Source: Arcanobacterium phocae (GTDB lineage Bacteria > Actinomycetota > Actinomycetes > Actinomycetales > Actinomycetaceae). From it: a stretch of DNA of 64,000 bases. Of this stretch, positions 61,346 through 64,000 are shown one piece after another (the stretch's first letter is position 1; each line of letters starts with the position of its first letter). The DNA lies in assembly GCF_900105865.1 (NCBI RefSeq), contig NZ_LT629804.1, positions 186,001 through 250,000 of the forward strand, read 5' to 3'. Under the pieces are notes generated by a model. It was not told where the DNA came from. It saw nothing but the letters and a program-made list of their open reading frames with translations, and searched no databases. Made by a program: the position numbers and the translations under genes.

Positions 61346-62233
61346 CTAGCCAGCAATCAACACAACAACGCCCACCAGCAACGGCGGAATCATCGCCCGA
61401 GCCGCCCCATTAATCGCTGGCGACGGGCACGGCATTTCCAATACTCCGCGTGCAGTCAGTAAATAGGCGCTCGCCGTGAACACCCCGATCAACACCGACG
61501 ATTCAACCCACAGCTGAGTCAAATAGCCAAAACCAATCGCAAAAGCAATACCGTTAACAAAACCAGCAATCCGCGCCGCCACTGAATCAAACGCATGCAT
61601 AACTGCCACAATCGCTATAGCCATGGCAGTCACAATGACAACATTTTTACCGTGACTTAGCCGCATTGCATGGATCCATAGCGAGCCCGACATCAACACA
61701 ACCGCGCCAGCAAAACCGCCTGAGAGCTGCTCAATCAGTCGCGGCCGACCATCGGTGCGGAACATTTCCGCAATGAACGCAGCAATAACACTCGCCGCCC
61801 CGACAATAGCCGAATGTGCAACAGTCCCAAAAAGGCCCGTCACAATCAGTGCGATAGCCAACAACGTCAGCATTGTGCGCGGGATTGCATGGGCCGGCAA
61901 ATCGAGCAAGCTCGGCCATCCTGCAATAAAAATCGCGCTCATAATTGCCACCGCAGTAGCAATAGCATACGGACCGAACACAGCCCCAACCGCCAATGAA
62001 GTCGCGGCATAAATTCCGACCAATGCACGAGCATAGCCAGCTCGCTTTGCCCAAGCTGCGATCAAAAGCTGGTCTGATGGAGTCCGAGCCGGATGCGGCG
62101 AGGCAAGTTGCGGTGAGGCGGGTTGCGGCGAGGCAGGTTGCGGTGAGGCGGGTTGCGGTGACGCTGGCACAGACTGAGCCGGCACCGACGCAGACACTTC
62201 ATCAAGGGTTGATTGTGGTTCCGTTGTATTCAC
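61346..62233 (-). CDS. Polytopic membrane protein with PASPQ repeats
   Basis: 295 aa, GTG start. The N-terminal cytoplasmic part holds five tandem PASPQ-like repeats (residues about 22-47). About nine hydrophobic segments follow. I recognise no transporter motif. It ends 33 bp before the nitrobindin-like gene and may be the first gene of that operon. No Shine-Dalgarno is seen before the GTG. Function unknown. Confidence 0.65.
   Translation of the reverse strand: MNTTEPQSTLDEVSASVPAQSVPASPQPASPQPASPQPASPQLASPHPARTPSDQLLIAAWAKRAGYARALVGIYAATSLAVGAVFGPYAIATAVAIMSAIFIAGWPSLLDLPAHAIPRTMLTLLAIALIVTGLFGTVAHSAIVGAASVIAAFIAEMFRTDGRPRLIEQLSGGFAGAVVLMSGSLWIHAMRLSHGKNVVIVTAMAIAIVAVMHAFDSVAARIAGFVNGIAFAIGFGYLTQLWVESSVLIGVFTASAYLLTARGVLEMPCPSPAINGAARAMIPPLLVGVVVLIAG
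62091..62165. repeat. Five tandem 15-bp repeats
   Basis: Unit close to GGTTGCGGTGAGGCG, in frame within the membrane-protein gene (PASPQ on the minus strand). Copies differ at one to three positions. Slippage would change the linker length without a frameshift. Confidence 0.85.
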
Positions 62234-62407
62234 AAATTACATTGTTTCACAACTGGCAAATTATTGGGAAAGATGGGACGAAACACAAACTGTGGATTTG
62301 TTGAACCCGCACCGCCGCAACAAGCCTGCAACACTGTGCACTATGAATAGAAAGTGTGCACCTATTTTGGGGTGACAAACCAGAACAGGGGCCATTATAG
62401 TTTTAGG

Positions 62408-62610
62408 CAAGACACCGGGTCGTGAAAGCCCCGGGCTCCAAATATTTGCCGCTACGAGCGGCCTTCGCGCCGACAGGCGCTCTCGGATCCGGTGTCCTTG
62501 ACTTCGGCAGGGGTCGTGGCCAATGGCTGCGGCCCCTGTTGCGTTACCCAGCCCTGGCCGCCCACCCGGCGGCTCCGACCCTGGTTCCGTCTGGGCCGGA
62601 GAAGCACGCA
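62408..62610. ncRNA. Candidate structured RNA or DNA: cluster of nested hairpins
   Basis: G+C-rich unlike its surroundings. CAAG-ACACCGG (62408-62418) pairs with CCGGTGTC-CTTG (62489-62500) and encloses GCCGCT-acg-AGCGGC (62448-62462) and GCGCC-gaca-GGCGC (62467-62480). Next, CAGGGG...CCCCTG (62508-62538) has symmetric internal pairs (CG/CG, GCC/GGC). Then TGCGT (62540-62544) pairs with ACGCA (62606-62610) and encloses GCCGCC/GGCGGC (62557-62573) and CTCCG-CCC/GGG-CGGAG (62573-62601). It matches no RNA family I know. Strand unknown. Confidence 0.4.
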
Positions 62611-62675
62611 CAAAATCTCGCCCAGCGAAACGATAGTGTGCTATAGGCCCCTACCGTGCTGGATTTCGAGATTTT
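62611..62675. repeat. 65-bp imperfect palindrome, copy 1
   Basis: Direct repeat of 63620-63684, with 59 of 65 bases identical. Arms AAAATCTCG, CCAGC and C(G/A)GTAG on the left are answered by CTACCG, GCTGG and CGAGATTTT on the right, with offset internal bulges (GAAA on the left, ATTT on the right) and a loop containing CTATAGGCCC. Confidence 0.85.
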
Positions 62676-62767
62676 GTACGTGTCAGAATTTGTCCACAGC
62701 CCCAAATATTTTCCACAGATTTGCTACGTGGAACATAACTAGGTTCAGGTTTTGCTGGACTAGAGTT

Positions 62768-63655
62768 ATGCATGTTTTTAGGAGAAATAGTCGTGAGGCA
62801 CAACAAATTGCAGGTCCGCATTCATTCCGAATATGTCTAGAGACTAAGAAAATAATTCCAGTTGGCCACCGCTGGTATGCCACAGAGCCAGTTGTTGGGC
62901 AGACAAAAGTAGCCTGCGAAAACGGCCTCCTCATTGGATGTCTGACCGCGATAAAAGAATACGGTGGATGGGTTCCGTACACAAAAAATACTCATTACAT
63001 TGCAAATAAGTATGGACCAGCCATGCACTTATCAAATGCAATCGTGCATCGGTGCATGACTAAATCTGCTGTTGCCGCCCACGTCCCACCAGCACAGGCA
63101 CCCCACCTAGTTGTTCCATTGACCGACGCTATTGAGCAAGTTCTGCAGCATCATGATGCAGAAACCGGGTTGGTTGTATTGGATTCTTTACTTAACCAAC
63201 ACAAAATCACATCCCATGTAGCTGACATCATGATCTCCCGCACACAATCCCAAAAGCAACGGATATTGAAACGTTACACAGCAGATTCTCAGTCTGGCAG
63301 TGAAACTCGGGTACGCAACTATCTATTGTCTAAAAAATATCTCGTTGCAACGCAGGTACCAGTAGAGGGAGTTGGACGAGTTGATCTACTGGTTGGACAA
63401 TCCCTCATTATCGAGTGCGACAGCAGCACTTTTCACAGCCAACCAATCGACGTGATGCGTGACCGCGAGCGCGATCTGCAGGCTAAATTACGCGGATATT
63501 CGGTGCTGCGTCTTAGTTATGAACATGTATGGCATCGATGGCCGGAAACTCAACGTATTATCGACACGTTTTTACACACTGGCGAGCACCGGATGCCACC
63601 TGTCTCAGTCCTCAACGGGCAAAATCTCGTCCAGCGAAACGGTAGCACTCTATAG
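62768..63655 (+). CDS. DUF559 (Vsr-like PD-(D/E)xK nuclease) domain protein
   Basis: 295 aa. The N-terminal part (about 15-75) resembles the AbiEi-like winged-helix region found in many such proteins (IIPVGHRWYA, LLIGCLTAIKEYGGWVP). The C-terminal DUF559 domain (about 175-275) has VGRVDLLVGQSLIIECDSSTFHS, with the Asp and the Glu-x-Asp expected of a restriction-endonuclease-like core, then RDRERDLQAKLRGYSVLRLSYEHVW. The start has no clear ribosome-binding site. Its last 12 codons lie inside palindrome copy 2. Function unknown. Confidence 0.72.
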   Translation: MHVFRRNSREAQQIAGPHSFRICLETKKIIPVGHRWYATEPVVGQTKVACENGLLIGCLTAIKEYGGWVPYTKNTHYIANKYGPAMHLSNAIVHRCMTKSAVAAHVPPAQAPHLVVPLTDAIEQVLQHHDAETGLVVLDSLLNQHKITSHVADIMISRTQSQKQRILKRYTADSQSGSETRVRNYLLSKKYLVATQVPVEGVGRVDLLVGQSLIIECDSSTFHSQPIDVMRDRERDLQAKLRGYSVLRLSYEHVWHRWPETQRIIDTFLHTGEHRMPPVSVLNGQNLVQRNGSTL

Positions 63656-63684
63656 GCCCCTACCGTGCTGGATTTCGAGATTTT
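63620..63684. repeat. 65-bp imperfect palindrome, copy 2
   Basis: Same orientation as copy 1, with a better-paired inner stem (CGGTAG/CTACCG). It supplies the 3' end and the stop codon of the DUF559 gene and would also act as a hairpin after the coding region. About 1.0 kb separates the copies. Confidence 0.85.
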
Positions 63685-63702
63685 ACGCGCAACGAATACC
63701 AA

Positions 63703-64000
63703 TCACCAAACATCGGACGGCAGTTCGCCTGAAATTGCCTGATCTGCCCGGAACACCGGATTAGCCCCGTCCTGACGCTCATAGTCCTGAAGTAACGCCA
63801 CAATCCACGGCGCCAACGCCCAAATTGCAACAAGGTTCAGCAACGTCACCACAAACATTGCAGTGTCCATAACTGTCCATACAAACGTTAACGCCATGAT
63901 TGAGCCAATGAAGCTGAAAACCACCAAAATAGCTCGGGAGATCAGCTCAAGCGGTCGGGATTTCTTCAAAAACACGAGATTAGCCTCACCATACGCATAA
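63703..64000 (-). CDS. Alanine/glycine:cation symporter, C-terminal end (AGCS family, cut by window)
   Basis: The reading frame continues through the right edge; the visible 99 residues are the C-terminus. YAYGEANLVFLKKS is the segment before the penultimate helix in AGCS carriers. Two or three helices follow (FSFIGSIMALTFVWTVMDTAMFV, LLNLVAIWALAPWIVALL), then LLQDYERQ and a polar tail. AGCS members import Ala or Gly with Na+ or H+. An internal GTG at 63975 is not a true start. Confidence 0.83.
   Translation of the reverse strand, partial: YAYGEANLVFLKKSRPLELISRAILVVFSFIGSIMALTFVWTVMDTAMFVVTLLNLVAIWALAPWIVALLQDYERQDGANPVFRADQAISGELPSDVW

Follow-up and report, generated by a model that had tools for sequence, protein, structure and literature searches.

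Homing enzymes as a rule insert into their target and thereby split it, and I-Bth0305I, as its name in the Protein Data Bank (PDB) indicates, is intron-borne. In integrons, imperfect palindromes (attC) bound exchangeable segments and recombine with each other. In REPtrons, as PMC3733652 describes them, a gene is bracketed by palindromes that are also scattered between the genes of the same genome. PMC3943268 reports that members of the EDxHD family dimerise on a target of nearly 60 bp, and PMC10448857 describes phage homing-nuclease islands, with nuclease genes at the boundaries of genetic exchange. Here we analyse a window of 64,000 nt from Arcanobacterium phocae (contig NZ_LT629804.1, positions 186,001 to 250,000), in which the gene for a predicted nuclease lies between two copies of an imperfect palindrome, hereafter P. 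We favour the explanation, with a probability of roughly 0.6, that P-nuclease-P is a REPtron-like selfish unit whose nuclease recognises its own palindrome and thereby causes recombination between P sites. A search of open-licence papers, which does not establish absence from print, found no account of DUF559-type nucleases with flanking palindromes.

A sequence-only reading of the window had described two bulged palindromes, about 91% alike and in the same orientation, around the nuclease gene, and had proposed that the second supplies the gene's final codons and stop. Both observations were borne out. Positions 62606-62675 and 63615-63684 are direct copies with 89% identity over 70 nt (91% over 65 nt), and the last ~13 codons of the nuclease open reading frame (ORF) come from copy 2, the stop codon TAG lying within the CTATAG centre. 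A degenerate third trace had been suspected at 62387-62399, where neither of our two covariance models gave a match at E values up to 1. A 21-base pattern taken from P, with up to three mismatches allowed, matched the window at the two P copies only (0.01 matches expected by chance). Folded as single strands, both strands of each copy outperformed shuffled sequences (z -4.4 to -8.4). Among 39 aligned copies, diverged species included, 14 of 19 stem pairs had changed on both sides, 86% of cells were paired (at most 44% when the partner was slid) and the centre was conserved. RNAalifold gave a poor consensus structure for the copies of the source-genome type alone; the covariation shows once diverged species are added. 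The termini of P are AAAATCTCG and CGAGATTTT, not GTAG, and the letters GTAG sit within the stem. Rfam at gathering thresholds returned two tRNAs and nothing else for the four loci submitted.

Beyond the window pair, P occupies at least 13 more places in the source genome (G000; 1,998,242 bp in a single contig, window coordinates being genome coordinates minus 186000), which the earlier reading had not foreseen. We searched with covariance models R1, built from 29 P copies, and R2, which included the types of the congeneric genomes G005, G006 and G007 among others. At most 150 candidates were scored per genome (31 in the wider-family search), so that all place counts are lower bounds. R1 located P at at least 15 places in G000 and at least 12 in its sister species G004 (30 and 24 matches, both strands counted). 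By the same count of strands, R2 found at least about 10 places in G006 (20 matches), and a diverged P of the same layout was common in G007 (84 matches) and G008 (39 matches). The six P-bearing genomes of the genus contained roughly at least 7 to 40 places each; among the candidates scored with R1 and R2, P was not found in G001-G003. In the wider family at least 6 of 151 genomes matched, all of them within the genus Arcanobacterium. The core pattern of P matched one stretch, from Prevotella and taken as chance, in a collection of 84,980 species from which records near the source may be excluded. Taken alone, the genome-wide distribution of P looked ordinary.

With 150 of 518 candidates scored in G000, 14 of 15 P copies were oriented as expected if each replichore carries one orientation, and the sites lay at 49-626 kb and 1397-1940 kb, none being found between 626 and 1397 kb. 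G007 and G008 do carry mid-chromosome copies.

Scattering was not peculiar to this palindrome: copies away from the nuclease were present for all three bracketing palindromes tested (three genera, two families). That of G047 (same family, different genus) had 13 places beyond its pair, one of them a match to the 34-nt core only, and its core was present in 6 of the 8 congeners that were searched; three genomes of another genus lacked it. The palindrome of G348 (different family) also had 13 places beyond its pair and matched 3 of 11 congeners searched, two by one weak match each; in the third, G242, palindromes of the G348 type flank the nuclease of that genome and recur at six sites elsewhere.

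The sequence-only reading had asked whether P copies cluster at DUF559 genes. In the literal sense they do not, as G000 encodes four nucleases of the window family and P of the window type occurs at the window gene only; in a wider sense they do, since repeat pairs bracket the nuclease family beyond controls. Repeat searches around the genes revealed other pairs at nuclease loci of the genus, mostly palindromic and differing in sequence from locus to locus (Table 1), as well as inverted pairs in G000, G005 and G006, and no clear pair at nine loci of the genus (L079, L115, L119, L137, L142, L147-L150). At G007:C1:1933792-1934047, two palindrome types lie ~100 bp apart, one like the pair at 264604 and the other, by eye, like the pair at 1859639.

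Relatives of the nuclease were present in 164 of the 297 genomes of the order Actinomycetales (profile of 16 proteins). For 87 nuclease loci we aligned the upstream and downstream 500-bp flanks locally with each other. A score of 20 was reached by 35 of the 87 loci, compared with 4 of 1290 GC-matched cross pairs and 1 of 76 control genes, and a score of 16 by 50 loci, 13 cross pairs and the same single control gene (590299-591066 in G000), which sits among duplicated genes. Cross pairs include orthologous loci, which may explain some of their high scores. Beyond the genus, 26 of 66 loci reached 20 and 37 reached 16, and none of 20 control ORFs from other genomes reached 16. Among the 31 pairs scoring at least 25, 21 were palindromic beyond all 50 shuffles and 18 had TAT or ATA at the centre (background 0.19). 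The pattern of nuclease and palindrome is thus found again in other actinobacteria and points to a selfish or recombination system.

Score thresholds were fixed after a first look, and the genus loci had already been seen before the flank test. Before counting, we dropped L181-L183 (the same loci as L077, L144 and L143) and L191, whose 637 bp of identical flanks probably reflect a duplicate, either tandem or from assembly. Loci from outside the genus numbered 66, a part of all profile matches; they comprise 26 of 30 loci returned by the profile and 40 picked by hand from the matches listed, by E-value and genus spread, at a stage when their flanks had not yet been inspected. At the window locus, the pair of G007 (72% over 46 nt) was scored as a miss, though R2 finds both copies. 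An earlier, looser scoring, in which a score of 30 was reached by 51 of 88 loci, 24 of 400 cross pairs and 2 of 53 control genes, was replaced because GC-rich flanks align by chance. The Pfam family MTES_1575 (PF18741) was rejected as a search handle. It matched 200 of 200 genomes of the family, mostly through a different protein type; as the best matches listed were mostly open frames of more than 1000 codons, the name alone does not mark the small nuclease, and 30 loci from this search served solely as one source of control ORFs.

In the sets examined, scattered palindromes matched the bracketing pair of their own genome. In G007, 18 palindromes out of ~42 places were examined (L082, with two palindromes, and L085, with one member of the nuclease pair, were left out), and every one of them had the window-locus pair of G007 as its nearest match. 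The four examined in G008 (of ~20 places) were likewise all nearest to the G008 pair. The 13 of 13 matches in G000 are to be expected, because these copies were found with the window P or with a model from such copies. At the window locus, G000 and G007 carry positional orthologues of the nuclease with 55% identity, so that bracketing and scattered palindromes appear to have changed together. At a second nuclease locus, common to five species, copies were 0.84-0.93 alike within species and at most 0.80 between species, except for the sisters G000 and G004 at 0.84-0.89. The repeat pair at this locus has undergone concerted evolution.

Comparison between species revealed exact gain or loss of segments from P to P, crossing over having taken place within P. 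G004 lacks the nuclease at the window locus and carries one P there, flanked on one side as copy 1 and on the other as copy 2 of G000, and this P is chimeric, combining features of both copies. Presence and absence between the repeats, which the sequence-only reading had proposed to compare among strains, is therefore precise. At 521549 it is G000 that has a single, chimeric P, and G004 has two ATP-binding cassette (ABC) transporter genes between two P. The single P of G000 at 626237 corresponds in G004 to a sugar-transport operon between two P, including a LacI-type regulator and an alpha-amylase-type gene, and in G006 to a Schlafen-AlbA-type gene between two P. On a larger scale, 36 kb lie between two P at G000:C1:587438-623958, and one P stands at the corresponding position in G006. 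In eight G000/G004 locus pairs, 7 of 12 breaks fell within 30 bp of P, a zone making up 1.4%; the statistic is valid within those loci only, because they were chosen around P or the nuclease. The nuclease itself is present at the window locus in G000 and G007, as a fragment in G005, and missing in G004, G006 and G008, a distribution that makes losses as likely as gains.

The 36-kb segment of G000 contains many large reading frames and duplicated genes. In G004 (C4:284396-286584; L257), two insertions, of ~0.9 and 1.0 kb, lie close to one P, and at the first of them 138 bp of the surrounding sequence are duplicated. Around one nuclease, 7.5 kb are 96% identical between G000 (L078, 284 kb) and G005 (L117, 228 kb), above the other G000/G005 loci compared, and a recent transfer is a possible explanation of this sequence identity.

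Table 1. Features of the window locus (window coordinates; protein features in residues) and repeat pairs at other nuclease loci of the genus (genome coordinates)
Feature	Position	Strand	Remarks
Palindrome P, copy 1	62604..62683	+	~80 bp, bulged, centre CTATAG; boundaries from covariance model R2
Palindrome P, copy 2	63613..63692	+	overlaps 3' end and stop codon of the nuclease gene; boundaries from model R2
Nuclease gene, 295 aa	62768..63655	+	ATG start picked from homologue alignment
Nuclease N-terminal half, AbiEi-like	residues 1-174		weak match
Nuclease catalytic domain, Vsr/I-Bth0305I-like (predicted)	residues 176-273		
Left neighbour, gene for 295-aa protein	61346..62233	-	present in 9/9 genus genomes; locus marker
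Right neighbour, sodium:alanine symporter gene, 3' end	63703..64000	-	runs on beyond window; locus marker
Repeat pair	G007 1859639		78 nt, 95%
Repeat pair	G007 230697		84 nt, 83%
Repeat pair	G004 50772		78 nt, 91%
Repeat pair	G005 1883322		83 nt, 88%
Repeat pair	G006 1855489		79 nt, 91%
Repeat pair	G008 1824668		75 nt, 93%

In the window protein, an AbiEi-like half is predicted to be fused to a catalytic domain of the Vsr/EDxHD homing type. I-Bth0305I (PDB 3R3P) was the closest catalytic domain by sequence and, among the Foldseek-ranked chains to which structural alignment was applied, also by predicted fold. The sequence-only reading had called the protein a Vsr-like nuclease of the DUF559 family. 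The type, DUF559/MTES_1575, stands; as a formal assignment it falls short of both curated Pfam cut-offs, with 35.1 bits against MTES_1575 (cut-off 38.2) and 17.1 bits against DUF559 (cut-off 20.6), a value that two of the four proteins scanned exceed. Of the genes adjoining the nuclease, the left one encodes a protein of no Pfam family that we judge from its sequence to be a membrane protein and the right one the symporter; neither is an AbiEii toxin gene. The 5' part of the left neighbour gene contains 15-bp tandem units (GCGGGTTGCGGTGAG-like) at window positions 62088-62167.

That the nuclease travels with its own hairpins, as RAYT (REP-associated tyrosine transposases) do with REP (repetitive extragenic palindromic) sequences, had been proposed from the window alone and holds as an association, given bracketing beyond controls and scattered copies for each of the three pairs tested. 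We infer that the nuclease also binds and cuts P and drives the recombination observed there. A nuclease dimer, with the AbiEi-like half as its DNA-binding part, would recognise the ~70-bp dyad of its own palindrome and introduce a nick or break at P, perhaps on an extruded hairpin. The damage would be repaired by recombination with another P, and such an event may insert, delete or swap the intervening DNA, be it the nuclease itself or unlinked cargo, and may also homogenise the two flanking copies. As P is scattered over a dozen or more sites of the genome, each solo P would be a potential landing and recombination site.

Several findings weigh against this explanation. Ordinary homologous recombination between repeats could account for the indels of cargo at P, and no break was found at the P sites 382342, 383540, 56842 and 513403 (against G004) or 1397212 (against G006). 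The positional orthologues suggest that the gene has long been present at the window locus and was lost in places, gain by homing not being seen there, and concerted evolution is not clear at this locus, where similarity is 0.67 between the two G007 copies and 0.66 between one of these and the P of G004. At score 16, 37 of 87 nuclease loci lacked a pair, and 10 of the 31 strong pairs did not surpass all shuffles in their palindromic match. Unrestrained cutting of P would moreover be self-harming, because two complete P flank the gene and more lie elsewhere. This problem of self-targeting would be solved if the enzyme acted on extruded hairpins only, if it nicked P without breaking both strands, or if the AbiEi-like half kept it tightly repressed.

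We considered what else could bring P and the nuclease together. P might be an operator, bound by the AbiEi-like half to control the nuclease, with the scattered copies as a small regulon and the indels as passive RecA recombination. Such an operator needs no matched second copy downstream, often only a few bases past the end of the gene match, and by crude ORF calls in G000, 9 of 14 P sites lie within 35 bp of a stop codon and just two between divergent genes, so that we regard this account as unlikely. Solo P might instead be relics, left where recombination between direct repeats deleted the gene from P-gene-P, as in solo long terminal repeats (LTRs), with the nuclease uninvolved. The chimeric single P of G004 opposite the P-nuclease-P of G000 is what such a deletion would leave, and the occurrence of the gene at this one locus in G000 and G007, and in decayed form in G005, also fits. 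Deletion alone, however, fails to explain the different cargo of G004 and G006 at one site (626237) unless both segments were once co-resident, and the joint change of scattered and bracketing P within each species needs continuing exchange. We therefore consider relics alone an improbable explanation, more doubtful than the operator.

P could also be an ordinary intergenic palindrome or a bidirectional terminator that brackets the nuclease by coincidence. It is common, with at least 15 sites in G000, 6 of 14 sites lie between convergent genes by the same crude ORF calls, and A and T runs flank the window P, the T run being short. Yet bracketing recurs across many genera with unrelated sequences, the P of G348 has no T run, the stem covaries around a conserved centre, and the scattered P of a genome go with the pair at its own nuclease. 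Coincidence is thus already contradicted by the data and highly improbable, and the plain terminator reading was not supported. The sequence-only reading had named abundance of the repeat without a link to DUF559 genes, and relatives carrying the gene without the repeats, as signs against a nuclease cassette. P is indeed common genome-wide, but the link to the nuclease holds; genes without a detectable pair do occur, while 50 of the 87 loci have one.

Extending the selfish-unit explanation beyond the genus, we see about even odds that these loci represent widespread chromosomal selfish elements of actinobacteria, in which a homing-type nuclease targets its own palindrome and tolerates many copies of it. 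Such elements would be an analogue of REPtrons made from an unrelated enzyme, and the scattered palindromes would thereby be sites where hosts gain, lose or swap genes and operons. The nuclease type occurs in over half of the order genomes searched, and the defined palindrome accompanying each nuclease provides a concrete test substrate. Should the nuclease act on P, the question of how REP-like repeats originate, spread and are maintained would have a second answer that evolved independently, and the sharply bounded gains and losses of genes that distinguish related species would be explained. What is puzzling is that a homing-type nuclease can coexist with a dozen full copies of the site that it presumably targets.

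Among known systems, I-Bth0305I offers the nearest catalytic domain to the window protein, and the target size of its family fits P. It differs in that the gene described here leaves its presumed target unsplit, with a complete copy on each side and more elsewhere, and in that the N-terminal half of the window protein resembles AbiEi. We conclude that this is not a standard homing gene, because the presumed target is not split by it. The likeness to AbiEi antitoxins of type IV toxin-antitoxin systems is limited to a weak match of that N-terminal half, which is here fused to a nuclease and has as neighbours a protein without a Pfam family and a symporter. As in integron cassettes, imperfect palindromes bound exchangeable segments, but the cargo of P includes a multi-gene operon and, where seen, has P on both sides. 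Unlike in phage homing-nuclease islands, the boundary of exchange is a defined repeat and lies in chromosomes. REPtrons are approached in that the window nuclease is flanked by palindromes also scattered extragenically (crude ORF calls, G000 only). The enzyme is different, a predicted Vsr-fold nuclease in place of the Y1 HUH transposase of RAYT, and so is the repeat, P being ~80 bp long with an A/T-rich centre and no GTAG end, in which REP terminates. A search for the Y1 transposase (PF01797) found it in none of the nine genus genomes, the control responding in 5 of 14, and this result and the lack of a GTAG end in P show that the locus is not a RAYT system. From this comparison, we rate the system as one that probably works like a REPtron with an unrelated enzyme.
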